This document shows positions 15,611 to 34,975 of a stretch of 64,000 nucleotides of DNA, one piece after another. Below the pieces are notes generated by a model. It ran no database searches and was not told the origin of the DNA. It saw only the letters and a list, made by a program, of their open reading frames with translations. Source of the DNA: Fragilariopsis cylindrus CCMP1102 (lineage: Eukaryota > Bacillariophyta > Bacillariophyceae > Bacillariales > Bacillariaceae); NCBI GenBank assembly GCA_900095095.1, contig FMBT01000291.1, forward strand, positions 930,001 to 994,000, in the 5' to 3' direction. The translations under genes were made by a program, and so were the position numbers. Position 1 is the first letter of the stretch. Each line of letters opens with the position of its first letter.

Positions 15611-16447
15611 TTCCGACTTCAATCTACGTCCGAAACTTTAGAATAGAGATATTGAATTGTGGCTGTAGTGGTTGCGGCGATGGTCTGTACCTTGTTCTGC
15701 AGCGAGTATAAAATGATGCAAACTATGATATGTAGCCATCAATGTATGTGTAGTATGTAACATCGATAATATGTGATTACGGTGGACAAATTTCACTATT
15801 TCTGCTGATCAATGCCCTGTGTATATAATACATTGAAAATGTTTTTGCATAACGATCTACTCTATACTGAATACACCCCTGGTTGTATTTTTCATTAGGA
15901 TTTGACTTTTTCCGGAAGAGTTGTACTCACAAATCAATGTTAGTATACTGCATTTCTTGCTTGCTAAACTTGCTAAAGAAACTACACAATAATCTAGCAT
16001 TTTTAAATCAAAAATGCACCACCAAAGGCGTATTTGCGTTTGGTTTACTTCTCAATAAAAATAGAAGAACTTTAACTTTCAAACATCCATCCTATAGAGA
16101 TCAAAAGGGTACTTTGGCCAACTAGTCAGTAATCATATTGTGTGAGCAAATCAATCGCAAATCCTCTCCCACCCAGGACATTGACTTACTCTAGCCAGGC
16201 ACTAGGGGATATAGTTGTATAAGTAGATGACTCGCATCACTATACTAAATTGATTCATGTTAATAGTCATTTGGTGAGGGAGCATATGGAAGTATATCAT
16301 GTACCTAATGAAATATATTATATGAAAGTAAAAACTATTTTTAAAAAGATAGTATCTTAAATACAGTTATTTGAGTATTATTTTTCCTATTCCACACAGG
16401 AAAAATATATGTGTGATCACATCGGGTATAGTTCATAGTTAATTTTC
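15611..16447. other. intergenic region
   Basis: No convincing gene. An 80-codon frame at 15883-16125 has no recognisable features. The region separates the SGNH gene from the 3' end of the first LRR gene. Confidence 0.55.
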
Positions 16448-19387
16448 CTATAGACGAGACCCTGCACATCGGATCGGATCTGGAAATCTTCCTGCTAAGA
16501 CTTGACACTCACAAAGGCCTCCAACGCAGCAATGAGTACAACAAGGACACGCTATTTCCTGACAATCGGCATAAGCGACAGCCTCAGCCACGTCGATGCT
16601 TTGGCATAGCGCTGGGGGAACTTCGCCCGTCAAATCATTCTCATCTATACGAAAGACTCGTAGTTGGGAAAGCGCAGACAAAGAATCAGGCAAGTTTCCA
16701 GCGATCCGGTTGCCCGATATGCGGAACTGTCGCAGCTGGGTCAAGGCTCCCAACTCAAAGGGAACGGATCCAATCAATTGGTTCGTGGATACGTCAAAGC
16801 CATCGCGTAGTTTGGTTAGCTGACCTAGCTCTGAGGGGATTTGAAAACCGAACTCGTTGTTAGAAATAAAGAAACCTTCCAAATTTACCAACTGACCAAA
16901 TTCAGTGTGAACGGTACCTTGAATATTGTTGTTGCTCACGGAAAAAATCTTAAGATTGATCAAATCACCAATGGTTCGAGGAACAAATGTAAATAGATTC
17001 GAATCCAAATCTAAAACTTCCAGACTGGTCATACTACCAATGATTGATGGAACAGTTCCATTCAATTCGTTATTTGGTAAAACTAGACTCTTTAGTTGAG
17101 ACATTGATCCAAAATCTTCGGGGATAGTCCCAGAAAATTTGCAATCTCCAAGATCCAAATATTGCAGGGAAGGAATAACAGAGACAATTCCGCCAGGTAA
17201 GGGGCCCGTGTAGTCATTTCCGTTTAAGTCCAATTCTACCAAGGCCGTTAGGTCGGATAGTTGCGATGGAATGTCACCTGATAACGAGTTCCCTCGTACA
17301 ATTAATTCCTCCAGCATTGTTAATAGTCCAAGTGTAGTTGGTAATGTTCCATTGAGACCATCAGCAGAGAGACCACGAATGTTTATGGCCTGAAGACTAT
17401 CTGAAAGCAAACCAAGTTCTGGCGGAACCGTTCCCACGACGTTGTTGGCACCAAGAACCAAGTTAGCAAATAATCTTTCGGAATTGCATGCTGTGACTCC
17501 CGCAGTATACCATGTACATTCGTCGAAGTCACTCAACCAGCGACTGTTGTCAAGCCAGTCCATACCGTTGGTGGAGAAGTAAAAGACTGCCAAAGTCCAG
17601 CGGTAAAGCTGCTTTTCTGGACTATAAAATTGGAGATTCTCGTTACCCAACAGCCATGTCAAAGCTTGGTATTGAACAGAATCGGCATCTTCGAAGGCCG
17701 CTGGCAAAGTTGTCGGTGCCGATGCCCGAACAATATTGTCGGTGACAGGATTAGAATACGTAGGACCCGTCGTAATTGGAGAAGCTGTCGGAGATGCTAT
17801 CGTCGTCGGTGCCAATGTTGCTGATGGAGATAGGGGAGGAGGGGGTGGGGTTGGGAATGCTATTGGGGGTAACGGTGGAGGTGTGAAGATAGGTTGAGGA
17901 GTTGGAGCAAATGTGGTTGATTTGTCTTCTTTCTTCACATCAAAAACAAATATACCAATTGCAATACCTGCACTGATTCCAATTAATAAGAGGAGAGTTG
18001 CAATCGAAATACAACCGATCGTTCGCCTCCTACTAGTATCTGTGTCGTATACTACCTTTGGTTTTTTGGGCTTAGACGTTTCATCAGCTCGCTGTGATTC
18101 GATGTCTGCAATAGGAGCATTTGAACTTTTCACAGCACTGGCTGTTCTGATCGGTGCTGTGTTGTTAACTTCGGGTCCACTAACACCCTCGTCCGCTCTA
18201 GATACCGCAGCTGCTGCAGGTAAATTTCCTGCACGTGCAACGAGAGACTCCTCACTGGACGATGAATCCTCATCACTAGACGATGCTTCAGATTCATTTT
18301 CATCGTCAAACTCAAGCTCTCGTTTGCTATCGACGATTTCTTCTTCAATTGATTCCTCATCCAAAGTTTCCTCACCCAAAGTTTCTTCGTCATAAGATTC
18401 TTCGTCTACAGTTGCCACAGCCACAGCCGTTGCTGCTGCCGCTACCGCTGCCGCTTTTTTTCTCTTTTTTCTTGGAAAAGGATTTGCTTTCATTTGAAGA
18501 AATGGCAGAGACTGATTCATCATTTTCTGACTCGCTTGATTCTTCGATATCTCTAGTTGCGATAGCTGCAGCAGTAGTGACACCAGCAGCTGCGATTGCT
18601 GCATCTCCTTCGTCATTGTCTTCCTGCTGTTGCGCATCTCTAGCAATCGATTCTAAAACGCTCTCCGCATCAAAAGAACTATCATCATCCTGTTTGGATG
18701 ATTCATCTTCCTCGTCGGAACCATCAGACTTCCTTTGTTCACTTGAAGCTGGCGGAGATTTTAGTGCCGAGGCTTCCGCACCATCCAGCATCTCAGATAC
18801 TTTACCTCCTTGTTCTGGCGATTCAGGTGCAAGTAAATCATCAAGTTTTCGTACTGAATCTTGCGGGTCGTCTCCAAGAAGCCTCGCTGTGTCTGTGTCT
18901 CTAACGTTGTGTTATCCTCTTCGGTGGACTCGTCATCGCTGCTATCGCCATCGCTATCATCGTCATCTGACGAATCATCATCGGAGGATTCTTCTCCAGA
19001 TGATGATTCTTCTTCTTTTTCTCCTTCTTCATCTGATGATGAGTCTTCAGATTCGGAATCACCAGATTCGACCTTTGTTGGAACTAAGATCTCCGAAGAT
19101 GCATCTTTCGATTTCTCATCTGACTCCGACTCGGATTCTGACTCCGACTCGTCGTCCGATGAACTAGATTCATCGTCATCATCTGATGATTCATCTTCAG
19201 CCTTTGATTCGTCTTCATCGCTACTAGAATCCTCATCTTTTGATTCATCTTCATCCTTTGATTCGTCTTCATCGCTACTGGAATCCTCATCTTTTGATTC
19301 GTCTTCATCGCTACTGGAATCATCATCTTCGTCAGAGCTACTTTCTTTACTCTCACTAGCGGCACTAGAATCGCCTTCGCTACTACT

Positions 19388-19420
<33 letters not shown>

Positions 19421-19480
19421 GTCGTCGTCGTCGTCGTCGCTGCTATCATCGTCATCATCGTCGTCATCATCGTCGCTGCT

Positions 19481-19513
<33 letters not shown>

Positions 19514-19822
19514 GCTGCTATCATCCTCATCATCCTCATCATCATCGTCGCTGCTGCTGTCGCTCTTTTCCTCTTCTTTGCTGCTATCATCATCATCATC
19601 ATCATCGTCGTCGTCGTCGTCATCGCTACTTTCTTCCTCGCCACTGGATTCGTCTGACGCTGAGCCATCCTCACTATCACTATCGCTATTGGCGCTACTT
19701 TCTTCTTCTGATGAACCATCTGACGCTGAACCATCCTCACTTTCACTATCGCTACCACTATCACTATCGTCGCTACTTTCTTCTTCACTACTACTTTCTT
19801 CTTCTTTCTTTTTCTTCGCCAT
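16448..19822 (-). CDS. single-pass LRR protein 1, acidic N-terminus (two compensating frameshifts)
   Basis: Surface-type LRR protein of about 1124 residues. Order: MAKKKKEEE start; a very long Asp/Ser tract; a Ser/Ala-rich segment; a basic stop-transfer and TM helix (RRRTIGCISIATLLLLIGIS, around residue 600); a Pro-rich stalk; a capping segment (LYRWTLAVFYFSTNGMDWL, then CTWY); about ten LRRs of the LxxLxLxxNxLxGxIPxxx type; and a Cys cluster CPCCTHCCVGGLCEC near the end. The frame changes twice, once between about 18,760 and 18,920 and once at the A7 run (T7 at 18455-18461). Net length stays divisible by three, and the middle frame has coding character. Function is unknown; recognition or adhesion is inferred from LRRs and topology. 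Confidence 0.78.
19385..19640. repeat. coding trinucleotide run (Asp tract)
   Basis: ATC/GTC triplets on the plus strand encode long Asp runs, broken by Ser pairs, in the minus-strand LRR gene. The complementary strand stays open as a poly-Ser frame, an artefact of the triplets. Such a run is prone to length change by slippage. Confidence 0.9.
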
Positions 19823-20639
19823 GTTAACAGTATTCAATTTCCTCAAATTTTAATTTATATTCAATATATAGTTGCTTATTGATGATACCTTACGGATTAC
19901 TTCGTCTTGTAATTAATTGTGCAGGGTTTCGATTGTTACCGATGCGACTTCACTTTGAACTGAACAAAGTAAAACTTTTTTGCATGTACTTCTTACTTGG
20001 TATGATTTGTATGAGATGTTAAGCTAGCTAATTCGTCAAACGGATCGATCGCGAGTAAAACTTGGTAGTCATCAACGGTAAGAAGATAACAATTGAAACA
20101 ATCCAGTGTTGTTACGAGAATTGAATGATTTGTAAGTTGGTCTAGCAGTGTATGTATTGAGTATTGTCATCCAATAAGTTGATGAAACAACTAAAGATTT
20201 TGGCAAACTTGTAAATTAATTAGGAAAATTTATCACTCTTCGCCGTAAATCCGGAAGTGGTTCCGTCGCGAGTCCCGCAATCGCAATGAGCAAAACGCGC
20301 TTCTCAGCCAAGTTAGGAGTTACAAATCATTAGTGTTATATAAGATAGTCATTTGCACCAACATTGCAGCCCGAATTTTTTTTGTTGAATGGACAATTTT
20401 GGTTGATTACCACGTTTAAAAATACGAGAGTTTTTAATGGTAGAACAGGTAACTTTTTCAGACATGGATAAAGATATACAAAATTAAATATTAAAAATTA
20501 AAAAATCGCATACAAATTTCTGTGGCGAATTTACTGTTACTCTGTAGTAGTCTATAGTTTAGACTAACTAGTAGTTCATAGTTAGAGTGGAGTTAGAATC
20601 GGCAAATTAAATACAGCATCAATCAAGAAATGAGCTAAA
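19823..20639. other. intergenic region
   Basis: Upstream of LRR gene 1 and before the copia remnant. No gene was found. It could contain degraded 5' parts of the element, but no LTR boundary was recognisable. Confidence 0.5.
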
Positions 20640-22361
20640 GTATCCTGTATATGAATGAGCAATTCGAGCTAATACAATACGGTCAAAGAACAAGTAGATC
20701 AAAATAAGGAAAACCCAAGAATCTTAGTAGCACAGGCAACGGGTTAGTTGAAGCAAATGATAAGATTGAACTACTAGGAAAACAAATAGCACAACTGTAT
20801 GCAGCACTAATGGCAAAAGACACAACTGCAGGAACAATCACAGCACTGAATGACAAAATCAATCAACTTGAAAGTAAAAGCGGAAGAAGAGGAGGTGGTA
20901 GCAATGGACGCCAACAGTATGGGAAAGTTGGAAGCAGCAGTAGCTACCCCAGAAATAATGATGGAATCAGAACTACTCAAAGATGGGACAATGACGATTA
21001 CTGTTGGACATGCTGATATGATATCAAGCATACAAGTATGACATGAGGAATATGAGAAAGTAGAAGCATAATTCTTTCATCGGACTACAGCTAGGCTGTT
21101 GTTTGATTCTAAAAGAGCAAGACCGAACCTACAGGTTTTGGCTGCATACTTATGTACAAGAGTCAAGGCTCCTACCCAGTCTGATTACTGCAAACTAACC
21201 AGGGTAATTAAATATTTAACAGATAACTATCTTCATTCCACTAGTACTGGGGTGGGATGGTACTGGACAATTGTTATGGTCTGTCGATGCGTCGTTTGCA
21301 ATACACAAATACATGAAAAGCCATACCGGTGCAGTACCAATATTGGGACAGGGGGCTCTAATGTTGATGCCGTTGTCTCTTAAACAAAAGATTAACATGA
21401 AGAGCTCCACAGAAGCGGAATTAGTTGGTGTTGATGATGCAATGAACTTCATTGAATGGGTCCAACTATTCGTTGAACAACAAATCAAATCAATTAATGA
21501 AGATTCAGTTTTAAGAAAGATTGGACCTGATGTCGTTATACATCAAGATAACACAAGCACAATACAACTGGAGAACAATGGGCAAGCGTCTAGTACCAAG
21601 AGGACCAGACACATTAACATTCGATACTTCTATGTGACGAGTAAGACCAAGGATGGAAGCATTCTATCATCCCACAGAGAAAATGGTTTCAGACTACTTA
21701 AGTAAACCGTTACAAGGTAGCCTACATATTTAGAATCCATCGAAATTCTATCATGGGCCATTCAGAGGACTCCATCTCTAGATACAGAAAAGGGTAGTCA
21801 GATGCTAAAAGGTTGTCGTCGCCATCATAATTGAATAAGGGATCATATTCAACAGTAAAAAAATATACTATGCTATATTGAATATAAAAAATATAGGAGT
21901 GTGTTGAGGATTCAATTTATATTGAGTCCCGTGAGTGAGGTTTTTATGACATGTGTCATGTCATGATCATTGTGATATTTACACACGTCATTTCCTTACA
22001 ACAATAACCATATGTTCACTTGGTTAATGTGAGGTTGATAATTGACAAGAGATGTTATGCTGTTTACACACCATGCTAATGCAGCGTACCTCTATCGTCG
22101 CACCTCTACTGAGGTGTCATCTTAACTCTCATTATTTATTATTAATCTATGCAATAGGGAAATATAAATAACTAAGTTAACAAACATATATTATATAGTC
22201 TCTTCAAGCATTACATAGCCATAGCAAGTATTAAATCACGTAGTAAATCAATGAGTTAAATTAAATCAAATAACGTGTCTGTCTATTGTATTTCAATACT
22301 GTTGTTGAGATGAATATAGTGAGAACCTACTTTTTCTTCACATTAATATATTTTTCAATCG
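20640..22361 (+). mobile_element. decayed, internally deleted Ty1/copia retrotransposon (CoDi-like)
   Basis: A gag-like segment (20750-21040) has a coiled part, a Gly/Arg-rich linker and a nucleocapsid zinc-knuckle start DDYCWTC, followed by an in-frame stop. It passes directly into the end of reverse transcriptase/RNase H: SKRARPNLQVLAAYLCTRVK and KRVIKYL-like TRVIKYLTD, then WSVDASFAIHKYMKSHTG, KSSTEAELVGVDDAM and KRTRHINIRYFYV. After a frameshift comes the typical polyprotein end KMVSDYLSKPLQG. Protease, integrase and most of the reverse transcriptase are missing, so the copy is dead. The 3' part from TGTTGA at 21902 is a probable LTR. The outer limits are approximate. Confidence 0.85.
21902..22361 (+). 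repeat. probable 3' LTR of the copia remnant
   Basis: Begins with TGTTGA immediately after a purine stretch (ATAGGAGTG), as a copia LTR would. The expected TCAACA end is not intact; a degraded version (TTTTTCAATC) is near 22361. The end coordinate is an estimate. Confidence 0.4.
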
Positions 22362-22584
22362 TGCACGTTAGTTATCTCACGACAGTCGACGTGCGTCATA
22401 CGGTAATAAAAATATATATGCATGTTTAATGATATCCTAGGAATATTATTAATATACAGTATGTCATAAATCATAAATACTAGTACCGTCGTAGTAACCT
22501 CTTGTCACATCATACAGAGCATTCTGATTGATTCTGGCTATAGCTAGTTACAAGAACGTCCTAATTTGAAGAGGTTCTGTAATA

Positions 22585-23283
22585 ATGGATAGACTCACAT
22601 ACAATAATTTTCTAGATTTTTTGTCTTCCATTATATTTTCTTACGATACTCCGAAGGATATTCAGAAAAAAGTATCGACATGGTCATCTTCTGTCTCGAC
22701 GTACGCCAGAGACAATCCCATATTCTCCGTTAAGAAACGAACCAATGATGATGGGGGAGAAATAGACGTAAATATCCCATATTTTGGTTCTGTTTCACTC
22801 GACGTTTTCTTATTTTCAAGTTCGGCAATTTTATCTCGGGTGTACATTTTTTGGAGAAGTCGACGACGACGACAACGACAAGTATCGATAGAAGAGGAGG
22901 ACGACGACGATGATAAGATAGAACGCTCCGACAAACCACAACCAGATGCATATAAATCGCCTCCAGTCAAAGCTACAGTTGTAAAGGGCTACAAAGATGA
23001 GGGTCTATATGAGACGATAAATAGAATGCAGGATGTAAGGAAATCTTTACGTAAGGTTGTCGATCCTGAGGTGACGAGAAAGGAGAAGCAAGAACGACTC
23101 AAACAGCACAACATTATTCGATCAATCAGTGGTCAAAATAGTGGTAGTGGTAGTTGTACTAGTAGTTGTAGTGATGGATACTTGGGCATGTCTTCAAACA
23201 GTCTCCAAGAGGCTCGAAAAATTCTGAAAAAAGTCGACGTCGAACCAGCAGATCATACGGTGCCAAAAAGAGCAATGGTATGA
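22585..23283 (+). CDS. hypothetical protein sharing a block with LRR protein 2
   Basis: A 232-residue frame of unknown function. It has one moderately hydrophobic stretch (SLDVFLFSSSAILSRVYIFW) followed by an Arg cluster and an acidic run, which could be a membrane segment with a cytosolic tail. The middle is Lys/Arg/Glu-rich and probably helical. The last 38 residues (SDGYLGMSSNSLQEARKILK and onward) are almost identical to a segment in the N-terminal half of the LRR gene that converges on it. Similarity is high at DNA level, so the block was copied recently or is kept similar by conversion. The gene may be a partial duplicate or a real partner. Confidence 0.55.
   Translation: MDRLTYNNFLDFLSSIIFSYDTPKDIQKKVSTWSSSVSTYARDNPIFSVKKRTNDDGGEIDVNIPYFGSVSLDVFLFSSSAILSRVYIFWRSRRRRQRQVSIEEEDDDDDKIERSDKPQPDAYKSPPVKATVVKGYKDEGLYETINRMQDVRKSLRKVVDPEVTRKEKQERLKQHNIIRSISGQNSGSGSCTSSCSDGYLGMSSNSLQEARKILKKVDVEPADHTVPKRAMV
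23161..23265 (+). repeat. block shared with 27481-27590 in inverted orientation
   Basis: About 100 bases, from around GATGGATACTTGGGCATGTC to CAGCAGATCATACG, match the minus strand near 27481-27590 with only a few differences. The block is coding in both places and read in the same frame. Confidence 0.85.
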
Positions 23284-23457
23284 ACATGAATTGATTTCAT
23301 AATACCAAAACAAAAAACAAGATATGAACATAGTGTATAGTTCACTATTCAATACTGCTACAAGAGAGTTCTACAAGAATAATTTACTTAATTTACACCA
23401 ACATCTGGAAAATAATAGTAAGTTACTGGTACATACAAAATGATTATAATATTATCT

Positions 23458-26400
23458 TCATTGATTATAGCAAAGAAACTCTTTCGGTGTTCCCAAGTAT
23501 CGACATACACATGTATCCTCGACGCAACATGATGTACAACATGCACAATCGTCATCGAAATCGATGCAGTCGGCCTCGAATTCTGGATATGTCGTGTTGA
23601 AAGTTTCGCAAACTGAGTTCGGAATACTACCTGATAAATCATTCGAATACAAAGACAGTGAAGTTAATTTCTTCAGTCTAGAAAACTCTGACGGTACGGT
23701 TCCAGATAAGAAATTATGGTCAAGCTTCAATCCCCCTGTTTTTTTTTAAATCAATAGATTCGTTTTCGAATTCGAATCGAATTCAGCAATAGCATTAGCG
23801 AGCAGAAGAGAAGACAATATATTAGAATATAAGAAAGAAGAGAAATGAAGAAATCGAGTCTCAGTTACTAGTAGCAGTGAACTGTCTTCGTAGAAAATTG
23901 TGAATGATCTGATCTTGGAGATGTTTGTTTTTGCTAAACAATACCAACATTAATAGCAGGGTATCATACTTACTGAGTTCAACAAGCATCCCAAGCTCCG
24001 TTGGTAGTGACCCCGAAAGCTTGTTATTTGAAAGATCAAGTATATTTTGTAGTCCTAGAATACTTGCAAGTTCAGACGGGATATTACCACTTAGATCATT
24101 GTTTTGAAGTTCCAGAAATCCTGAAAGAGGAATAATAATAGAAGATAAATTGATGAAATTGAAACCAAACCCATCAACAACAACAAAAAACGCGTTTTGT
24201 GTGAGTAGACTAAATAAATCCAGATAAGCAAATGGTTGATTATACAACTACTGCACAGTATTTTACATCAAACGTACGTAATTTGCGAAGCAAGCCCAAT
24301 TGTGTAGGGATGAAGCCTGTAATCTCTGAATCCGTAAATGAAATTATATCTGCTGATGAAAGCAAACCAAGCTCAGTAGGTAGTTCAGTCAGCACATTCC
24401 CTCCTCCTCTTAATGCTTCGAGTCTTTTAAGATTTCCGATCTCAGTTGGAATCGACGAAACGAAGGCGTTGTCCTCGAAGAACATCTTACGACAATTTTT
24501 GAGATTTCCTAGCTCAGATGGTAGCGACCCTGATAAAGAATTTTTACTGACATCAAAAAACTTTAGTTCAGCAAGCAATCCAAGCTCAGTTGGAAGCGTC
24601 TTTGAAAGCTTATTATGTGAAAGATCCAACTGTTCTAAACTGCTCCAATTCGCAACCTCAGATAGAATAGTGCCACTTAAGTTATTACTTCGCACAAAGA
24701 ACACCTTAAGTCTTGTTAGGTAACCTAATTCACTTGGAATCGTCCCAATTAAATGAGTATCGGGACCCCCGCGTAAGGTCTAACATGATAATAATTAATA
24801 ATACATATGATAACGATAAAATGATGATTCGGTGAGTAGGATCTTAGAATAAATCAATTTACATATACAAGTACTAATGATTCGTGTAAATATACGACAC
24901 ACGCTGTTCATTACTTTTTATCACACTTACGATCCTTTCCAGCGACGATGACAACAGTCCAATCTCTGGAGGTAACGAACCATTAATATTGTTTGTATCA
25001 AGCTCAAGATTGACCAATTCTTGTTCCTTGTTACAAAGTCTACGAGAGCCCGTCTTGCCGTACCAATGACATTCTGTCCGGTCAGATAACCAAAAATCAT
25101 TTTTAAGCCATTGGTCACCATTAGTTGCGTAGTAAAAAGTAGCCAATGAATAACGTTGAAGTTTCTTCTTACGTGAGTATTCCATCAAATATTTGTCTTC
25201 AAGAAGCCAAGAATAGGCCATGTATTGCGGGGACGAAGTGTTATTTAGTGCCTCACCATCGTCGAATGAGTTCCTCACTAAGAGATCAAGCAACGAAAAG
25301 GAGGGTGGATTGGATGGGATTGAAGTTGGGTTGTTCAATGATGGAAAGTCACTAGGCATATCCGATGACGAAAAATCGATAGGTGCTGCTACCGTGGGAG
25401 AAGAAGCTGGTGTTGGAGCAGGAGGAGTCCAAATTGCATCAATCACTTCCACGATAGGTGCTGCTACCGTGGGAGAAGAAGCTGGTGTTGGAGCAGGAGG
25501 AGTCCAAACTGCATCAATCACTTCCACGGGAGAATCTGGATCTACACGCTGTAGATGATATTGTAATCTTCCAATTTCAATTGCAAGTTCCGTTGTATCT
25601 TTGAATTCTTGCCAAGAATCTTCCCCATCGACCAGGGAAATCTTGGAAACGATTTCTTGGCATAAACTATTCATGACATAATTTGGACATGCAGTATCAG
25701 ATACGCTAATGATTTCTGTTGGTAGAATAACAGTCGTATGTTTTCTTCTTCCACCTCTCATTCTCCTCCTTTTACTTATGTTTAAGAGTATATCAGAAGA
25801 AAGCGAGTCCATGCTCATGACTAATTCTGGAACGTATTCTGATTGAGGAACCAAGTCCACTAGACCATTTGCGACATAAATGATGTAAGGAATGGTAAAA
25901 GAGACAGTATCAATCGGTGTAGGTGCATCGCTTGTAGGTATTGTAGTCGTTGGGGTCGGCGAGGGTGTTACAGAGAAATCAGGCATCGTAGCTTGTGCAG
26001 GCATCAACGTTGGAACCGGCGAAGACGCCAAATTTTTGCTTCCAGACGTAATAAAAATAGTTCCTAGGACAAGACCCAAACCGATAACAAATGCCAAAAT
26101 TGCAACTATTAGGAATATCCTTTTACAATTCCGTGTTGGATGCACAGGTGTATTCTTTGAATATTTCTTTGCTGGCAAATCATCCGGGTTGTCGTTGCCA
26201 TCGTAGTTCTTTGGCATCTTGGACTGGTCAAATGCATAGTCCGTTTTCGAATGGTCTGGCAGGTCTGGCGGTTGTTCGTAATCAAATCCACCACCATCAG
26301 TATATTGTGGTGAGTCTTCGTCGAACATAACTTCATCATCTGAGTCGTCAGGTAGGATCGAAACAATAATGGATCGATCGTGCGATTTGATCTGCTTTAC

Positions 26401-29400
26401 GTCATTTGACTCAGGTGTATCCGTGGTTTCTGGTGTCGGCGTTGATTCTCGATCATATAGTTCTTCTGATTCAGGAACGCAATTACGTTCAGGCGACGTC
26501 TCCAAAAGTCGAGCTGATTCTAGACTGTTTCGTGATGACTGAAACTGCTCAGATGATTGACTAATGGGGGACAATCCCAAAATACTATCATTGCTACCTT
26601 CTATGACGACCTTTTCTGTTTTCGAATTATCTGTTTCAGCGCTTAACGGGGGTGATGGATCTTGATCTCGTGGTGGAGTATTGAAGACATCTTCTTCATC
26701 ACCTTGACCCTCTCCAGTAAGATCTTCAGCTAGAGACAGTACTCTACGTTCAGGCGTGATTGCAGGTAAACGTTTATCAATCTCATCTCTTGGTCGATTG
26801 TCGGGGGGTGTTAAAATCGAGTTAAGATTTTCTAAAACACGAGTAGAATGTTCGACCTGTCTCTCAGGTGTTCGATCTGAAATGCGTTCCGCAAAAGAAA
26901 CTAATGACTGAAAAACGCTTTCGTTTTTAGAAGCCAAAGGTGATCTTACGCTTTCCTCAGAACAATTACCCGGGGCAATTGACGACAATGTTGTATCTCC
27001 AGCAGAAATATTAATAGTATTTGAAGGAGATATTTCGGTAGAGGTATTTTCTATCGGACTGATAGGCAGAGAGCTTTCCGACGATCCACCACTACCAAAT
27101 CCGAAGGGGTCGAATCGAGGAGGTGATAATTCTGCTACATTTGATTGATCGAGAATCTCTGCGTCTCCCCCAGTCTTCTCGACAATTTTCAATCGCCCCG
27201 GAGGAGACTTTTGTGTTGCAGCCTTCGAGCCTTCTTCTACTTCTACTTCACCAGCAACAGACGAAATTGTGGACAAATATATGCTACCCACCGAATCATC
27301 TGTTTGAACAATATTATTTCCCTGTTTTCGGTCACCCGTGGTAACTAATTCTTTCTTCTTTTCGCCCTTTGGGGGTGTTTCGAGTAGAGTGGTAATATCT
27401 ATATTTTTTTTATTACTAGGAACTTTTCCCTCCTTCTTTTCGACAATTTTCAACCGTCCTGTGCTCTTTTTTCTTTCTGGCATCGTATGATCTGCTGGTT
27501 TGACGTCGACTTTTTTCAGAATTTTTCGAGCCTCTTGGAGACTGTTTGCAGACATGCCCAAGTATCCATCACTACTACTAGTAGTACCACTACCTGTCAA
27601 CTTTTTTCGTACTGCGGGCTTTGAGTCTTCTTTTACTTCACTTGCAATGGATGGAACCACCCCAGACGAATCTAGTTGATCATTCGTGCTAACCACAGAA
27701 TCCACTGCTTGAACCTTATTTTCCTGTTTTCGACCACCCTTCTTGCCCTTCGGAGGCGTTTTGAGTTGAGTATAATTCCTTTTTGAAGACGCTGCGGTCC
27801 CTTTCTTTCCGACAATTTTAAACCTTCCACTTGCAATAGATGATGATGATATTGCAGGAGGCGAATTTTTATTCTTTTGATTACTTTTCGTATCTAATGT
27901 TTCGGGTAATTCCCTTGGTGGAGTTAGGAGTGGATCGGAATTCTTCTTCCCTGATGTTTCAGTCTCCTTCCCTTTTATCTCAACAATTTTTAACCGCCCC
28001 GGCAATGGTGTACTACTACTGGTATTCTCTACTGGAGGATACAAGTTTTCTTCTACTTCTCCACCTGCTACAAATAAAATTGTTGGGGTCGAATTTTTAC
28101 CTTTTTGGTTACTTCCGGTAGCAAATTTATCGTCTGATTTCCCCTTCGGAGGCGTGTTGAGTGAATCGTATTTTATTTTCCTCGACGCTTTGAAAATACT
28201 TGAGGGAATCAATGGGGACGTATTACTTTGGTTTTGACGTTCTTTCTCGACAGACTCTTTTTCGACCTTTGCTTCGTCCCTTGGAGGTGTCTCAAGAGTA
28301 TTATAAAATTCCTCACCTGAAATGATTGTCGTATCTCCATCACCTGAAATGATTGTCGTTTCTTTGATCCTATTACTACTTCTATCACTACCGGGAGTTG
28401 ATTTAAGTGGTGACGAATAATCCTGATCCGATTCCGATTCCGATTGTCCTACTTGTATTGGGGAAAAGTTGGGTGGAGGGTTTTCTTCTGCTGTTAGGAG
28501 CGGCACCCAATCGTCTTCTTCGTTATCGATATTAGTTTTTCCTTTGTTCTTTGTTCTCGAATTACTTTTCCAAAAGCCAGGAGATGATCTATTTGGAGTT
28601 CCGCCATCACTACCCCCATAACCACCACCATCGTCGAGTATTGAAAAGTCTACCCGTGACAATTCATCTGCTAACGCACGTTGACTAGATTCTAGGTCTT
28701 CCATTTCAGCATCTAAATCGTCATCTTCTCCTTCGTTCTGGGTGACAGTCATTCCTAATTCTCCTAAATGCTGTGACGGTGTTGCCAATAGCTCATCGAG
28801 TCGTGATACCTGCTCCGTGAAGGGTTCCTTTACACTACCACTAGCACTACTAGCATCCGAAGCCGATGAATCAGAAGCTCCTCCTCCCGAAAATCCAAAC
28901 GGTATTGGAGAAGCTCGTGATGAAAATGAAGGAGTTTGAGGACTGAATATGTCTTGAATGCGACTTAATGGATTAAAACCTCTTCGACCTGAAGATGCTG
29001 GTAACCGTTGTTTTCGACTCGATCGAGGTGTTGCAGGAGAAAGTCCTGATAGTCCCGACAAAGCCGCCGGTGGCTGTCGACGTCCACGTGATCTACCCCC
29101 CGATGATTGCTGCCTTGCTGAAGACGATAATCTACCCATTTTGCTGCCTGGAGTTGTTGAACCGGGTGTTTTAAATTGTGTTCTAGTTTTTGGTTGTGGT
29201 GGTGTCGTGACTGATGCGGATGCTGCAGTTGAGCTCTGAGTACCCCGTGGCGGCTGAGGAGATAATGTCGTTGATGGTTGACGCTGTTGTGGTGATTTGT
29301 GTTTTGCTTTGCGACTGGAGGAGGGTGTAGAAAATAGCCTCCTCTTTTTAGGTTTGGTTGGTGTTGCATCCAATGATGTATCTGTCTGCTGTCGCGATGG

Positions 29401-29637
29401 TATATTACTAGTAGTAGTAGTTAGTTCTTCTTCTTCTTCTTCTTCTTTGGCGATTGATGACGGCATAGGCAAATCAGCTGACGGAGGTGTGGAATCGGTT
29501 GTCGAAGCTGGTTCAAGCGGCGGTGCGTCCGTCATTTCCATACCTTCGGGCGATCCACCAAATCCATGACGACGTGCGTCCGATGGCTTACGGCGCATCG
29601 GCGATGGTTGCCGTCGTTGTGATCCTCCGCCTTTCAT
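23458..29637 (-). CDS. single-pass LRR protein 2 with TPP-repeat cytoplasmic region
   Basis: Four exons join in frame: 29637-24931, 24779-24278, 24120-23974 and 23735-23458, for 1877 residues. The first 1170 residues are basic/Ser-rich. They carry repeated modules with GRLKIVEKK-like cores, each followed by a TPPK or TPPR motif, and an SDGYLGMSANSLQEARKILK block. A TM helix (RIFLIVAILAFVIGLGLVLG, about 1172-1195) is followed by a Pro/Thr stalk and a domain beginning VSFTIPYIIYVANG. A 25-residue tandem duplication comes next, then the cap (YSLATFYYATNGDQWL, then ECHWY), about eight LRRs spanning the introns, and the Cys cluster CACCTSCCVEDTCVC. The introns fall within the LRRs. No kinase domain. 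Proline-directed phosphorylation of the N-terminal half is inferred from the TPP motifs. Confidence 0.88.
25378..25528 (-). repeat. 75-bp tandem duplication in LRR protein 2
   Basis: Two adjacent 75-base units differ at few positions and encode the 25-residue stalk unit VEVIDAxWTPPAPTPASSPT plus VAAPI twice. The length is a multiple of three, so the frame is kept. High similarity implies a recent duplication. Confidence 0.95.
27481..27590 (-). repeat. inverted partner of the block at 23161-23265
   Basis: Coding segment of LRR protein 2 (around residues 680-720), nearly identical to the C-terminal coding segment of the small plus-strand gene about 4.3 kb away. Confidence 0.85.
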
Positions 29638-30949
29638 CGTTCTAAATTCACTTCGCTTCGAGTGCCCTCCCTGATTGTTGGGTCTACCGTAGGGGATTTA
29701 TATTGATTCGACGCTAACCTGCCTCGTTTTTCTATCTCCCGATGATGATTGATCATTCTTGGTTGAACATTGAACATGGAAAGAGACAACTACTTCAGCT
29801 AAGTAAAAGCATACCTGGATAGTACTGTACCTCTCGGTTGAGAAGGGTGCGATAAAATTTCAAGCCATGATTTCGTCGAGTGATAAAAAGTAATCATTGA
29901 AAAAATGAGCAAAATGCTTATGCCCTCGCTGTTATTGTCAACAAAATATTCTTCCGGCGCGCGCCGACGTTTCCTCTCGCGCCAAAAATAGGTATCTTAT
30001 AGAAGTTTAAATTTTTTTAATTTTCGCTCCTAAACACTTACGACGGCTACTTGACTTGTACATATTAGTATATTTTGTGTATAACCAGTACTGACTTTTG
30101 TGTTTGATACGCATTCTATATAAATTGCAAAATCAAAACATACTTTTCTGTCAATATAATAAAGGAAAATAGTTTATCAATAATAATAATAATGCCTACT
30201 AACCAATTAGCTACTAATCTTACTATGTGTTGACCATCATTATAGTGCTTGTGTTCCAGTCCCAAACCCTTCATTATGTATAACCTGAACTGGTTATCTT
30301 ACACAGGCAATGTGTGCACTTGTGGTAGAAAAAAGTAGGAAGATTATTAAACAACTATGTACAAACGGAGCAGTTTATGTGTGGCTTGCTGGCTAGCTGG
30401 CTAAGCATAGCAGCAGCAATTAGTTACACAAGAAAGATGCGGTGCTTTTGTCAAGTGTTGGTGCATCTGTGTTCTGTTCATATTATCTTTACTAAGCTTA
30501 CTGCCACTAAGTATACTTGATTTGTAGTGTGTATAGTACTTGGAGTATGATTTATTCGATTCTTCATTCATTCATCATTCTACACAAAAACTAAATTAGG
30601 TATCAATAATTCGCCATAATTCGGCATAATTGTTTTCTTTCGACAAAAAACAATCACAAGAATCGAGTTCAGTTATTCTTGTACGACTTGTATGATGTAC
30701 TAGTACTACTGAAGTAGTATGATGTCATGATGTCGTATATGTGAATTCAGAATGCAACAACGTACCCTTAGTTTGTGACTTGTGACACAAAACAAGAGCT
30801 TAACTCGACTACTATCACGATATGCCTCTGCGTATGCTGGAGCGGTGACAAAGACCAGATATAACAAGCAGAAGAGGAAACCGAGAAGACAACAAGATTA
30901 TTACCTACAGGAAACCGGATATTATCTGATTGATTCTCTTCGTTTTTCT
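29638..30949. other. divergent promoter region between LRR genes 2 and 3
   Basis: The two LRR genes start on either side in opposite directions, so both promoters should be here. AT-rich; no gene. The frame of LRR 3 is open from about 30782 but its first ATG is at 30950. Confidence 0.6.
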
Positions 30950-33900
30950 ATGATGGCATCTCTTTCGGGCTCATCACAGCGTAATGTTCCATTTAAGAGA
31001 CGACCGAAAAGGATGCGAGTAAAGAAGTACATCATAGATTCGAGTAGCAACATCAGTAGTATTGATATGTCGGGAAGAGTCGAACAAGATCAGCAAAATG
31101 CTGGAGTCGAACAAGTTCAGCAAAATGCTGACACAACTACTACACGTATCATGGCACATGATTCTTCGTTTTCTCGCTTTAATAGCGACAAAGACGAAGG
31201 GAAGATAGGAGAAATAGAAACATCATCAGGAGTATCAGCAATGGTAGCTATAAGAAATATCGAAAAGAGACGAGTGACTTCTGCTCACAATGTTGACAAG
31301 GGAGAACAACCAGCATCGTCTGGAGCTCAAATCCAATCCACACGGGAAATAAACGAAGTAAGGAAAGGCTTGGGGAAAGGGGAATCAAAAAGTGTAGATG
31401 ACGTCAAAAATTTCCAGTCTAATCTACCAAAAAAAACGATAAGTAATACCGACAATGATAATAGTAAAGCACTAGAAGAAAAAATGAAACCCAAAACAGT
31501 GCCTTCATTGAGATCATTTTCATCTGCAGCAAAAGTTATGCCATCTGACGGTGGTGGTGACAAAAGGAACACGAATAACAAATCCGACAATGAGCATCAA
31601 ACCAAAGAAATTGCAAGCCGGCTTAAGGCGAACCGGGCTATGCTGAGTCTTACTTTATTCGGTAAAGCGATAGAAAAGAAAGATGTAGATGTAGATGTAA
31701 ACTTGATGAATACATCCCCATTCCCATCCCCATCCCCACCACCATCCCCACCACCATCGTTATCGTCATCGTCTACTTCGTTCTCGTCAAATCATCGATA
31801 CATAAGTGAGGTCGAGGAGGAGGAGGAGAAAGAAAATGACGAAGCAGTTGTAGCAGCGGCATCTATTCTAGCTAAATATTCCTCCCCTGATAGCGCGACC
31901 ATTAATATGGTGGAGCAGGAAAAGCGACGCCATGATAACTTTAATTATCAATATCAGCACCAGAATGATGACACTTTCAAAGCGAAGGATGATGAGGAGC
32001 TCAAAGCTATTGATCGGAACAATACGACTGGTAACTTCAGCGATGATGATGACGTCTACGACGTCTACGACGACGACGACGACGACGACGATGATAATGG
32101 TGGCTTTCCTTCGACGTCAGCTACGTTATCCTTAGCCGATCCAAGTGGAAAAATTAAGGCGTCCCTGGAATGTACACAGAGCAAAAAAGAAAATGACGTA
32201 GATGAGAAGGAACGAATAAAAGCCGCCCGGGGATTGGTGGTTGCTGCAATTTTTGAACGTAATAGTCAGCATGCCCGAGTGAATAGGAAATTATCATCAG
32301 CTTCATCTGACTCCGAGTCTGAATTTGAAATTGAAATTGAATCTGAATCTGTGTCTGCGTCTGTACCAGTAGATAGAACGAGTATTTACGACAAAAACTC
32401 AAGATCAAACTGGTGGAAACGTTTGGGGGGTATCTTCAATCGACGGAAAAATAAAGGGAACAACGACGATCTAGAAATAGAACAACCCGCTCCAATTGTG
32501 GAAAAGAGGGAAAGCAAAGAAGAAGAAGAGAACGAGAAAGATAAAATTTATCAGATTCTTGGCTCTTCAGCTTTTAAGAACGATCTTTTGAGTGTCAAAC
32601 TCAAGCCAGTAGAAGATAAAAAAGAGCCAGCGAACGTAAAGGACGAGGCCACTGGACAGTCCGAAATTTCTGGATCTCTTGCATTTGCGGCAGCAGCTGA
32701 GGCAGTGAAAATGAAAAGCAAATCAGTGCCATTGACGGAAGCAGATTATGACAGACTTTATGAACCACGGAAAGAAGTGGAAGTGGCGGATGGATCCTTA
32801 GCAGCCCAAGCTGCCTCAATGGCACTTGCAATGAAAAAAAGTGGTGCTCACTTGAAAACTGCAGAATACTACGACAAGCTTTATGAACCAAAGAAAGAAG
32901 TGAAAGTGGCGGATGGATCCTTTGCAGCCCAAGCTGCCTCAATGGCACTTGCAATGAGAAAAAGTCCGGAATATTACGACAATATATATAAAAAGCCACG
33001 GCAACAGAATGATGAACCACAATTGATGGTTAACTTGAAAACTGCGGAATACCACGATACTATGTACAAAAAGCCACGGCAACATAATGATGAACCACAA
33101 TTGATGGTCCAGTTGAAGCCTGTCAGAGAGAAACTACCGTCGTCGTTGCATATAGATGCACATGAACACTCGGAGGGTAACGCGGTTGGTGATTTGGAGG
33201 AAAATCTAGAAGGACCCAACTCAGCATCCTCTGATTCTGTATCCACAACCGTTGAATCTTCCATCGATAAAGGTCATTTCAATTGTACAAAACAAGTTTG
33301 GTATCGCACTGCCGGGTGCTTTGTTATAATACTGGTCTTGGTTGCAATTGTCATTCTTGTGTATTTCCTGGTGTTTGCGAACCCTGAAGCAGACATCGAT
33401 ATTACCCTACCGTCTTCTTCTCCGATAATGAAACCAGCTACATTTATAACCCCAATTCAGTCTCAGACACCTTCTTTACGTCCAACAGGAGCTCCATTGG
33501 TTCAACCAGGAATTCCACCTATAATTATTGCCCCTACATCCCAGCCAATATTTGATACCGCCTCACCAACCCCGCCAGTAACCATTGATTCGCCCACGTC
33601 CCTTCCTACAGCAAACCCGACCGCAAGCTCTGGTGTGGCACCCTCACAAGTCCCACAATCGAAGCCCTCGGCTATTCAAAATCTACTCATTTCTCGATGG
33701 TCATCTCTAGAAGAATCAATTGCTACGCCCTCCTCACCACAGGGCGAGGCCTTCAAATGGCTAACGAATTCTACTTCCAACCTTGATGCGTATTCTGAGC
33801 AGCAGCTACTACAAAGATTCGCCATGGCGACGTTTTTTTATAGCACCAATGGCAAAGATTGGTTGAACAACGACGGTTGGTTATCTGAAGAAAATGAATG

Positions 33901-34975
33901 TTTGTGGTACCAAACAAAAAGCTTTCGAAAACCTTGCGATGCTTCTGGGAGCCTATTAATGAACCTAGAACTAGATGAAAATGGTCTCTCAGGGAGCCTC
34001 CCATCAGAACTCGCTTTGCTTTCCAACAGTTTGACTCGCCTAGAACTTGCGACAGGTAAGAAAACCGATGACAGCAATGATACTTTTATTCGTGGTAATC
34101 TGCCATCTGAGTTAGGTCTCTTGACAAAGTTAGAATACATGAGTCTAAGTAATCATCAAATTTCAGGTACTATACCGTCTGAAATTTGTGAGCTTTCACT
34201 ATTAACGGTCTTAGACTTGGAACGCAACAAGCTCGAGGGCTCTATAATGACAAACATTGGGCAACTTCAACAATTGAACAACCTATATCTCGGATTGAAT
34301 CTCTTATCAGGAGAAATTCGCTCCGAATTTGGTCGCTTGCAGTTCTTGGTCAATCTTGACCTCTACGGAAATCAGTTTTCATCGACTATTCCTAGTGAGC
34401 TTGGTAAACTAAGTTATCTTCAAACAATTTCCTTAGGATACAATAGAATCACTGGCACAATTCCTAGCTCCCTTGGAAATTTGTCAAACCTACAAGGAAG
34501 CGTGGATCTTAGTGGCAATCGCTTGACTGGTACAATTCCTAGTGACTTGGGTCAATTGAGTATGATACTAACAGTCCTAAATCTTTCTTCGAACCAACTA
34601 TACGGTCCTATTCCTACACAGCTAGGTGGATTTAGTCACTTGGGTAGTTTGCAGTTGCAAGATAACTTGTTGACTGGTTCAGTGCCGTCCTCTTTCTCCA
34701 GGCTCTCACAGCTACAAATTCTACGATTGGAATACAATAATTTGAACGGAAGCGTTCCGTCTTCAGTATGCGATGCACTTGTCATAGACAAGATTGACGA
34801 CAAAATTGCTCCGACGTATTTCGTCACCGACTGTTTCACCAAAGTTGACTGCGAATGTTGTCAATATTGCTGTGAGGAAGAAATTGGTTGCGAGTGCCAG
34901 TTCAGCGATACAGATCAAGATTTTCTTTGTCAACCAGGAAAAGTTTTCAGGCAAGGACGAATGTTCGGACCTTGA
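30950..34975 (+). CDS. single-pass LRR protein 3 with tandem cytoplasmic repeats
   Basis: An intron-less protein of 1341 residues with the same plan as its two neighbours. The N-terminal half is charged, with Pro/Ser runs and Asp-rich tracts. It contains tandem units of about 45 residues that repeat an EYYDKLYEPKKEV-like element and an ADGSxAAQAASMALAM element (around residues 560-720). A TM helix (AGCFVIILVLVAIVILVYFL, about 787-808) is followed by a Pro/Thr stalk, the cap (RFAMATFFYSTNGKDWLNND, then ECLWY), about ten LRRs (GxIPSELGxLxxLxxLxLxxN type) and the Cys cluster CECCQYCCEEEIGCEC. The ATG at 30950 is the first in frame. Unlike LRR 2 it has no introns in the LRRs. Function unknown; extracellular binding is inferred. 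Confidence 0.88.
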   Translation: MMASLSGSSQRNVPFKRRPKRMRVKKYIIDSSSNISSIDMSGRVEQDQQNAGVEQVQQNADTTTTRIMAHDSSFSRFNSDKDEGKIGEIETSSGVSAMVAIRNIEKRRVTSAHNVDKGEQPASSGAQIQSTREINEVRKGLGKGESKSVDDVKNFQSNLPKKTISNTDNDNSKALEEKMKPKTVPSLRSFSSAAKVMPSDGGGDKRNTNNKSDNEHQTKEIASRLKANRAMLSLTLFGKAIEKKDVDVDVNLMNTSPFPSPSPPPSPPPSLSSSSTSFSSNHRYISEVEEEEEKENDEAVVAAASILAKYSSPDSATINMVEQEKRRHDNFNYQYQHQNDDTFKAKDDEELKAIDRNNTTGNFSDDDDVYDVYDDDDDDDDDNGGFPSTSATLSLADPSGKIKASLECTQSKKENDVDEKERIKAARGLVVAAIFERNSQHARVNRKLSSASSDSESEFEIEIESESVSASVPVDRTSIYDKNSRSNWWKRLGGIFNRRKNKGNNDDLEIEQPAPIVEKRESKEEEENEKDKIYQILGSSAFKNDLLSVKLKPVEDKKEPANVKDEATGQSEISGSLAFAAAAEAVKMKSKSVPLTEADYDRLYEPRKEVEVADGSLAAQAASMALAMKKSGAHLKTAEYYDKLYEPKKEVKVADGSFAAQAASMALAMRKSPEYYDNIYKKPRQQNDEPQLMVNLKTAEYHDTMYKKPRQHNDEPQLMVQLKPVREKLPSSLHIDAHEHSEGNAVGDLEENLEGPNSASSDSVSTTVESSIDKGHFNCTKQVWYRTAGCFVIILVLVAIVILVYFLVFANPEADIDITLPSSSPIMKPATFITPIQSQTPSLRPTGAPLVQPGIPPIIIAPTSQPIFDTASPTPPVTIDSPTSLPTANPTASSGVAPSQVPQSKPSAIQNLLISRWSSLEESIATPSSPQGEAFKWLTNSTSNLDAYSEQQLLQRFAMATFFYSTNGKDWLNNDGWLSEENECLWYQTKSFRKPCDASGSLLMNLELDENGLSGSLPSELALLSNSLTRLELATGKKTDDSNDTFIRGNLPSELGLLTKLEYMSLSNHQISGTIPSEICELSLLTVLDLERNKLEGSIMTNIGQLQQLNNLYLGLNLLSGEIRSEFGRLQFLVNLDLYGNQFSSTIPSELGKLSYLQTISLGYNRITGTIPSSLGNLSNLQGSVDLSGNRLTGTIPSDLGQLSMILTVLNLSSNQLYGPIPTQLGGFSHLGSLQLQDNLLTGSVPSSFSRLSQLQILRLEYNNLNGSVPSSVCDALVIDKIDDKIAPTYFVTDCFTKVDCECCQYCCEEEIGCECQFSDTDQDFLCQPGKVFRQGRMFGP

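Follow-up and report, generated by a model that had tools for sequence, protein, structure and literature searches.

Gene organization and shared protein plan

Three adjoining LRR genes occupy positions 16451..34975 of the window, which is the whole 64,000-nt stretch analysed here (Fragilariopsis cylindrus CCMP1102, GCA_900095095.1, FMBT01000291.1, 930,001-994,000, forward strand), with genes 1 and 2 on the minus strand and gene 3 on the plus strand (Table 1). The proteins of genes 2 and 3 start with a long polar N-half, which is followed in turn by one transmembrane (TM) helix, a stalk, a cap, plant-type LRRs and a Cys end. The C-half of gene 1 repeats this plan from the TM helix onwards. The order of N-half, TM, LRRs and Cys end proposed in the first-pass annotation is therefore found in full in genes 2 and 3, while in gene 1 it holds for the C-half and fails for the N-half, which lies in three frames as assembled.

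Table 1. Features of the three LRR genes and of the pieces shared with gene 2, in window coordinates
Feature	Position	Strand	Description
Gene 1	16451..19822	-	acidic D/S N-part, middle acidic part, TM, stalk, cap, LRRs, Cys end
Gene 1 TM helix	17942..18022	-	N-flank 6 K/R, C-flank 3 K/R
Gene 1 cap, LRRs, Cys end	16451..17683	-	411 aa, 13 Cys
Gene 1 Cys cluster	16505..16549	-	CPCCTHCCVGGLCEC
Gene 2	23458..29637	-	exons 29637-24931, 24779-24278, 24120-23974, 23735-23458 (including stop); 1877 aa
Gene 2 tail module A	28624..28977	-	core aa 221-338; search match aa 203-343
Gene 2 tail module B	27472..27594	-	aa 682-722
Gene 2 TM helix	26038..26118	-	
Gene 2 cap	24934..25236	-	
Gene 2 Cys cluster	23503..23547	-	CACCTSCCVEDTCVC; last exon
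Module B, other copy	23149..23271	+	3' end of ORF 22585-23283, convergent neighbour
Gene 3	30950..34975	+	first in-frame ATG to stop; 1341 aa
Gene 3 tail units	32723..33121	+	four Tyr units (YDRLY, YYDKLY, YYDNIY, YHDTMY) and Ala-rich units
Gene 3 TM helix	33308..33379	+	
Gene 3 cap, LRRs, Cys end	33731..34972	+	414 aa, 13 Cys
Gene 3 Cys cluster	34850..34897	+	CECCQYCCEEEIGCEC

The outer part is uniform in detail. The cap pattern TNGxxWL plus ECxWY, already noticed at first pass, recurs as TNGMDWL/ECTWY, TNGDQWL/ECHWY and TNGKDWL/ECLWY, the three Cys ends share the form CxCCxxCC(x4-5)CxC, the part from cap to end holds 13 Cys in each protein, and all three stalks contain Pro, Ser and Thr. The LRRs are of the plant type with LxGxIP-type repeats (Pfam LRR_1, E 1.8e-24 for gene 1 and 1.9e-20 for gene 3), those of spliced gene 2 being assigned from reading of the sequence rather than by a Pfam scan. 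AlphaFold2 modelled the 411-aa part of gene 1 with a mean pLDDT of 77.2 and a pTM of 0.80, residues 53-70 and 364-411 falling below 50.

A single TM helix per protein was borne out by sequence hydropathy, as each protein has one strong hydrophobic segment (KD 2.55-3.54); gene 2 shows a further weak peak (KD 1.55) C-terminal of it. The TM precedes the cap and LRRs in all three proteins, which is not the signal peptide-LRR-TM order of plant LRR receptor kinases, and no segment above KD 1.5 follows the LRRs in any of them, so the receptor-like-protein order with the TM C-terminal of the LRRs is absent as well. Pfam scans covering the ORFs as well as the gene 2 and gene 3 N-halves found no kinase, nor did reading of the gene 2 LRR exons, in agreement with the original description; the three proteins thus combine TM and LRR without a kinase, as in the kinase-less TM-LRR class of diatoms.

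Gene 2 consists of four exons separated by three GT-AG introns, and splicing is needed for most of its LRRs and its Cys end, as the single ORF enters an intron directly after the cap. The stretch behind its TM (25495-25929) matched no Pfam family, and its structure prediction was unusable at a mean pLDDT of 39.8. The frame of gene 3 is open from 30782, a GTG of the bacterial code, and its first in-frame ATG is at 30950.

The arrangement is not a chance product: a second haplotype also keeps gene 3 open along its whole length and gene 2 open in its first exon, and a genome search with the cap gave 60 matches at E <= 0.001. As these frames run open through the TM in two haplotypes, separate genes for the N-halves are very unlikely in genes 2 and 3, an argument that does not extend to gene 1.

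Frame breaks in gene 1

The Asp/Ser run had been placed in the same protein as the gene 1 LRRs, which the assembled frames contradict. The run (353 aa, from 19822 downward) is out of the TM-LRR frame, a third frame holds a middle stretch of 173 aa from 18911, again with many acidic residues and much Ser, and 129 residues precede the TM in the TM-LRR frame. A scan for single introns of 35-400 bases between 18380 and 19000 returned 44 frame-keeping joins, none of them convincing, the 40 of 44 listed having weak donors and an A+T of 0.51-0.55. Aligned to the window over 2,540 columns, a second contig carrying the gene 1 C-part shows 1 mismatch and 11 gap openings, of 1-2 bases. Because the two contigs differ almost only by gap openings, one of them contains indel errors, and such errors possibly caused the frame breaks in the N-half. 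The three frames could also mean that gene 1 is a decaying pseudogene or that its acidic N-part stems from another gene, but this is rather unlikely given a C-part open over ~650 codons and a near-identical contig whose differences resemble sequencing indels.

Relatives in the genome

The cap occurs in proteins of several builds. In the paralogues C629/C372, C205 and C88a-c it is kept, and a short signal-peptide-like hydrophobic start (KD 1.3-1.9, judged by eye) replaces the N-half and TM; C205 also has a CxCCxxCC end downstream. Another relative, C89 (L072), carries a CBM6/CBM35-like domain between TM and cap, with a Pfam CBM_6 match (E 3.8e-5) that is below the family cut-off and a match to PDB 2w1w at E 7.6e-10. 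The pair C57/C424 follows the same plan with a weak hydrophobic segment (KD 1.76) and an acidic N-flank. Not every cap carrier follows the plan: in the distant C78 (L076) the LRRs come before the hydrophobic segment (KD 1.62), which is C-terminal. Taken together, the comparison shows a common outer cap-LRR module that occurs both anchored in the membrane and in secreted-looking proteins and is joined to unrelated tails.

An origin of the cluster by simple tandem triplication found no support, as the gene 3 cap groups with C360/C52/C510/C476 (0.90) and not with genes 1 and 2 in a cap tree of 31 sequences that has many weak nodes and leaves out L073. The Cys end alone is a poor probe for the family, as 3 of the 12 places hit by a C360 tail query at E <= 1 were strong matches. 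A DNA pattern for the Cys cluster was likewise discarded, triplet repeats swamping its 6970 forward and 6975 reverse matches (3913/3914 in the reversed control). The IMG/VR and GTDB genomes, collections not meant for diatoms, gave 35, 35 and 5 pattern matches, none confirmed, a result that does not bear on the spread of the family among diatoms.

Membrane topology

A type II signal-anchor topology, with a probably cytosolic N-half and the C-half outside, is predicted with strong sequence support from several lines that agree with the orientation first proposed. The N-flank of the TM is more positive than the C-flank in all 10 TM members for which flanks of 12-15 residues were set by hand; fixed 20-residue windows gave this result in 10 of 11 members, with one tie. 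Cys residues number 0-3 before the TM (for gene 1, in its 129 in-frame residues only) and 13-15 after it. The signal-peptide-like starts of the paralogues and the carbohydrate-binding-like domain of C89 point the same way, as do the matches of the gene 1 LRRs to plant receptor ectodomains, by sequence (GSO1, E 5.8e-102) and by fold of the predicted structure (MIK2, ERL1, GSO1 and FLS2). A further line is module A, a piece of the gene 2 tail found near a villin headpiece in another membrane protein; the villin headpiece is a domain type that binds cytosolic actin. Sequon density is no higher behind the TM than ahead of it and lends the topology no support.

The opposite arrangement, with cytosolic LRRs and the N-half outside, is highly improbable: the reversed flank charge of C57/C424 breaks the flank rule and the LRRs of cytosolic SHOC-2 are among the sequence matches too, at a much weaker E ~6e-32, but the lines above disfavour it and the long polar N-halves have no second segment above KD 1.5 to carry them across the membrane.

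Composition and evolution of the tails

As first noted, the N-halves differ while the outer plan is kept, and sequence comparison found them unrelated. Between haplotypes the outer part of gene 3 is under purifying selection (dN/dS 0.15) and its cap is 98% identical, whereas the tails evolve faster (dN/dS 0.44 in gene 2 and 0.64 in gene 3) with their frames open. Pooled over the N-halves of genes 2 and 3 the nonsynonymous share is below neutral (p 7e-4); the gene 3 tail alone is not significantly so (p 0.16).

The tail of gene 2 is a mosaic with pieces common to two other genes. Module A, of ~120-140 residues, is shared with an ORF on C561 that encodes a membrane protein with DUF4126 and a villin headpiece, the headpiece forming the C-terminal end with module A nearby, and is also carried by the likely haplotype partner of this ORF on C640. 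The match scores 130 bits against a maximum of 27.3 bits in 40 block shuffles. Module B, of 41 residues, is 94% identical in DNA to its copy in the neighbouring ORF. Constraint on the shared pieces finds no support, since dN (0.149) exceeds dS (0.102) between the two copies of module A and the two copies of module B, over 41 codons, show 7 nonsynonymous changes and 0 synonymous ones. No Pfam domain, villin headpiece included, was found in the gene 2 N-half, which thus lacks a recognizable actin-binding domain. Mosaicism is shown for gene 2 alone of the three, because the gene 3 tail has no relative besides its own haplotype copy. Of the 'interchangeable signalling tails' suggested at first pass, the sharing of tail segments with other genes is seen in gene 2, and the signalling or receptor role stays unsupported.

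Relation to known proteins

Many diatom LRR genes carry an annotation as plant receptor kinases, and we know of no established output for them; the present analysis gives the proteins studied here a likely orientation. The window proteins resemble plant LRR receptor kinases and receptor-like proteins (GSO1, MIK2, ERL1, FLS2, TDR) in their plant-type LRR solenoid, for which these are the best sequence and fold matches, and the cap region aligns with the N-terminal region of TDR. They differ in the TM before the LRRs, the absence of a kinase, the long polar N-part and the CxCCxxCC-type Cys end.

Kinase-less TM-LRR proteins have been reported in diatoms as MRP2 and MRM2 of Pseudo-nitzschia multistriata, which likewise have a TM region and an LRR domain, no kinase, and a similarity annotation as plant LRR receptor kinases (PMC6261938). 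The likeness covers this parts list, the TM/LRR order, a Cys end and the nature of the N-part not being stated in the passages compared (PMC6261938). The reversed plan of an N-part followed by one TM is shared with the Sro637_g179400 type of Seminavis, proposed as a receptor or adhesion protein, whose C-terminal part is a beta-propeller instead of a cap-LRR-Cys module (PMC8027222). Secreted LRR proteins are the commonest predicted secreted proteins in Nitzschia putrida and few in the photosynthetic diatoms compared (PMC9054022); the LRR module presumably outside and the signal-peptide-like paralogues recall them, whereas the proteins encoded in the window have a membrane anchor and long N-halves. 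Titles, abstract openings and passages of the literature yielded no description of this topology with this Cys end in diatom LRR proteins.

Proposed function

Genes 1-3 probably belong to a large diatom family of type II cell-surface LRR proteins with an outer contact part and fast-evolving inner scaffold tails. The internal signal-anchor helix would leave the long, polar and probably disordered N-half on the cytosolic side, and everything after the helix, from stalk and N-cap through the plant-type LRR solenoid to the Cys-rich C-terminal end, would stand outside the cell. By its fold and its relatives, the solenoid is most likely a binding surface for a ligand, a partner protein, or material of the wall or mucilage, and the inner tail may act as a scaffold coupling outer contact to differing cytosolic partners. 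Tails may be exchanged generally among family members, as the shared pieces of gene 2 suggest, and the presence of module A beside a villin headpiece would point gene 2 to the cell cortex.

A receptor or signalling role is a prediction, and adhesion appears at least as likely. That the three proteins are mainly adhesion molecules or cell-wall/mucilage linkers, the LRRs holding outside material and the tail tethering it to the cortex, is a serious possibility somewhat short of even. It agrees with the Pro/Ser/Thr-containing stalks, the carbohydrate-binding-like domain of a relative, the purifying selection on the gene 3 outer part and the tail piece in common with the villin-headpiece protein, and P. 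multistriata TM-LRRs were themselves proposed as 'pheromone receptors or adhesion molecules' (PMC6261938); against it, gene 2 has no villin headpiece and the shared piece bears no sign of constraint. Mating or partner-recognition receptors, as proposed for MRP2/MRM2, would have the same parts list (PMC6261938), and LRR genes change expression during sex in P. multistriata (PMC6261938, PMC5485032), but no strongly diverged allele was seen and the near-identical cap and conserved outer part of gene 3 make this improbable.

For the family of contact proteins favoured here, the gene 2 tail offers a concrete lead to a membrane protein with an actin-binding-type domain, by which an outside-to-inside link in diatom contact or adhesion becomes testable. 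It is a long shot that gene 2, and by extension the family, is the diatom counterpart of integrin-type linkers, with outer LRR/glycan contact and exchangeable linkers recruiting the actin cortex. The transmembrane link of secreted adhesive strands to actin-myosin in gliding or attached diatoms is described as 'yet to be identified' (PMC10547550), and under the integrin-type reading these proteins would be candidates for it.

Shared plan and fold of the outer part

Each of genes 1, 2 and 3, three neighbouring LRR protein genes, encodes one strong hydrophobic segment (TM), followed by a stalk containing stretches rich in Pro, Ser and Thr, a cap marked by TNGxxWL and ECxWY, plant-type LRRs and a CxCCxxCC(x4-5)CxC cluster (Cys end) near the C-terminus, with 13 Cys in every cap-to-end part. 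The common outer plan claimed in the first-pass annotation is thereby borne out in all three genes, in gene 2 after splicing. The claim that N-half, TM and LRRs form one protein holds for genes 2 and 3, but the acidic N-part of gene 1 is spread over three frames. Contig C286 (locus L010) is almost identical to window 14792-17330, a stretch that excludes this N-part, and departs from it nearly always by gaps of 1-2 bases (1 mismatch and 11 gap openings in 2,540 columns), suggesting uncorrected indel errors in one or other of the two contigs.

Features of the window and of related loci
Feature	Location	Strand	Description
P450 and reductase-like ORFs	6087-9103	+	Cytochrome P450 ORF, directly followed by P450 reductase-like ORF (flavodoxin, FAD-, NAD-binding domains)
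Gene 1	16451-19822	-	C-part open from TM to Cys end
Neighbour ORF	22585-23283		Convergent with gene 2; second copy of module B
Gene 2	23458-29637	-	Four exons, three GT-AG introns; splicing restores continuous LRRs and Cys end
Gene 2 stalk repeat	25377-25528	-	75-bp unit twice, 98% identical, VEVIDA[VI]WTPPAPTPASSPTVAAPI; in-frame duplication
Gene 3	30950-34975	+	Single unbroken frame with its first ATG at 30950; open from 30782
Gene 3 tail units	32723-33121	+	Four Tyr-rich units near TM
C561 frame	L089 796-1500 and L088 1-1305		670 aa; DUF4126 region with several hydrophobic stretches, polar stretch with module A, villin headpiece
C52 frame	C52:42016-43353 (end in L057)		Open frame of 3019 aa that closes with LRR cap and Cys end; only the end read

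No kinase came up in Pfam scans of the ORFs of the three genes; genes 1 and 3 matched LRR families, the gene 2 ORF, which ends ahead of most LRRs, gave zero matches, and neither the gene 2 nor the gene 3 N-half showed a family above cut-off, in agreement with the proposed absence of a kinase. A sequence search of solved structures with the gene 1 outer part placed plant receptor ectodomains on top (GSO1, E 5.8e-102; FLS2, 1.8e-89; best 60 of 272 matches). The AlphaFold2 model of this part, for which four window sequences, including two fragments, were used, reached a mean pLDDT of 77.2 and a pTM of 0.80, with pLDDT <50 in cap residues 53-70 and the last 48 residues including the Cys end, and its predicted fold resembles the MIK2, ERL1, GSO1 and FLS2 ectodomains.

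The family across the genome

Searching the genome (67.9 Mb, 818 contigs) with the gene 3 cap gave 90 candidates, all scored, and 60 places at E <= 0.001, many of them likely haplotype pairs; 30 of the 60 were surveyed as loci of ~3.2 kb. TM-anchored members with the cap in one frame are genes 1-3, C360, C52/C510, C265, C773b/C80b, C337a/C680a, C337b/C680b, C89 and C324 (C numbers denote contigs). A short, signal-peptide-like hydrophobic start (hydrophobicity score KD 1.3-1.9) occurs in C629/C372, C205 and C88a-c, and a weak segment in C57/C424, while C476, C773a/C80a and C707 (L073) were left unassigned. The distant cap carrier on C78 (L076), with several cap-LRR blocks, has the opposite order, LRRs and then a C-terminal hydrophobic segment. 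The CxCCxxCC-type end was seen in genes 1-3, C360, C52/C510, C337a/C680a, C337b/C680b and C205/C707, and is reduced or different in C476, C57/C424, C117/C464 and C629/C372; the remaining loci had none in the stretch read.

A cap tree of 31 sequences united the window genes with C360, C52/C510, C476 and C57/C424 in one clade (0.97), within which gene 3 sits nearer C360, C52/C510 and C476 than either of its window neighbours, genes 1 and 2, which speaks against a simple triplication. The C52 frame implies a very long N-part, and the N-part of C57/C424 (L055/L056) consists of near-identical 43-residue units, DEDDVYDRPGDVKSVPRDGKPKNEDHPESIWQRTPNSNIPGIP. The genome, in which the window occupies C90:930001-994000, has 27 matches to the silicon transporter family PF03842, all above cut-off, and is therefore that of a diatom.

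Membrane topology

The annotated orientation, LRRs outside and N-half inside, is favoured by several sequence features. Positive charge was higher on the N-flank of the TM than on the C-flank in 10/10 members when flanks of 12-15 residues were set by hand, and in 10/11 with fixed 20-residue windows (C265 tied), counting one member per haplotype pair and leaving out C57/C424, whose segment is weak (1.76) and whose flank charge is reversed. The cap is shared by relatives that look secreted, and C89 (L072) runs from a poly-Asp N-half through TM and PTP stalk to a CBM6/35-like domain and the LRR cap (Pfam CBM_6 24.4 bits, E 3.8e-5, below the cut-off of 28.9 bits; PDB 2w1w E 7.6e-10). Almost all Cys follow the TM; sequons did not discriminate between the two sides.

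Coding status and selection of the N-halves

The second haplotype, on contig C255, keeps the whole of gene 3 and of gene 2 exon 1 as open frames; the haplotype alignment was built on proteins, so that gaps are whole codons by construction. For gene 3, dN/dS between haplotypes was 0.64 in the N-half (834 codons), 0.74 in the stalk and 0.15 in the outer part (428 codons), N-half and outer part being different (Fisher p 0.010, rounded counts). The gene 2 values were 0.44 (N-half, 1171 codons) and 0.36 (stalk), and its cap showed 1 synonymous and 0 nonsynonymous changes in 98 codons. The pooled N-halves were below neutral (p 7e-4; singly, gene 2 p 0.001, gene 3 p 0.16). Together these results indicate that the tails are translated and fast-evolving, and that the outer part is conserved between the two compared haplotypes. 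The Tyr-rich units of the gene 3 tail are candidate sites of sorting or phosphorylation.

A mosaic tail in gene 2

Besides itself and its own haplotype, the whole gene 2 N-half retrieved four sequences, namely C561, C640 and the neighbouring ORF in two haplotypes. Module A (aa 203-343) is 69 and 68% identical to C561 and C640 (E 2.5e-35 and 7.5e-32), and 79% identical in DNA over 352 aligned columns; 40 block-shuffled tails reached at most 27.3 bits vs 130 for the real one. The C561 frame matches PF13548 (DUF4126; E 1.3e-8) and, C-terminally, PF02209 (villin headpiece; E 4.8e-10), the latter found at 4 places in the genome, probably two haplotype pairs. Module B (41 aa, 123 bp, DNA 94% identical) is inverted relative to its other copy, lies in the same frame in both genes and is present in both haplotypes.

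Sharing of both modules looks recent, since synonymous divergence is 0.10 in A and none in 26.5 sites in B, vs 0.037-0.038 between haplotypes. Nonsynonymous divergence exceeds synonymous in both (A, dN 0.149 and dS 0.102; B, 7 changes and 0), so that no constraint on them is demonstrated. The idea of interchangeable tails is supported for gene 2 by its recurring pieces, but the gene 3 N-half found nothing outside its own haplotype; the gene 1 N-part was compared within the window only.

Proposed working and relation to known diatom LRR proteins

The outer LRR part probably touches material or a ligand, and this contact would be passed on to the cytosol by the tail. In this picture the outer part is retained and the tail remade, which in gene 2 would have drawn in part on sequence shared with a membrane protein that carries a villin headpiece. 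Four features tip the balance slightly towards contact or adhesion rather than signalling: stalks are present, one relative has a carbohydrate-binding-like domain, the outer part is conserved, and there is the link to a villin-headpiece protein.

This kinase-less TM-LRR kind is already known. MRP2 and MRM2 of P. multistriata likewise combine a TM region and LRRs without a kinase, and a role as either pheromone receptors or adhesion molecules was suggested for them (PMC6261938). In Seminavis, LRR genes belong to the chief tandem duplicates (PMC7335047), and LRR proteins are the commonest predicted secreted class in Nitzschia putrida, while the photosynthetic diatoms of the same comparison have few (PMC9054022). 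Diatom LRR genes alter in sex, two being among 11 sex-regulated genes with Ka:Ks >1 (PMC5485032), and respond to grazing (PMC6390554) and quorum-sensing molecules (PMC7296067). A plan of unknown N-part, TM and beta-propeller is recorded (PMC8027222), and the transmembrane link in gliding is drawn as a hypothesis (PMC11962607, PMC13056149) and termed unidentified (PMC10547550). What is added here, relative to the openly accessible literature, is evidence on topology, a common Cys end, the presence side by side of anchored and secreted-looking forms, and the mosaic tail.

Elsewhere in the window, the P450 and reductase-like ORFs could belong together, as a pair or as one fused unit.
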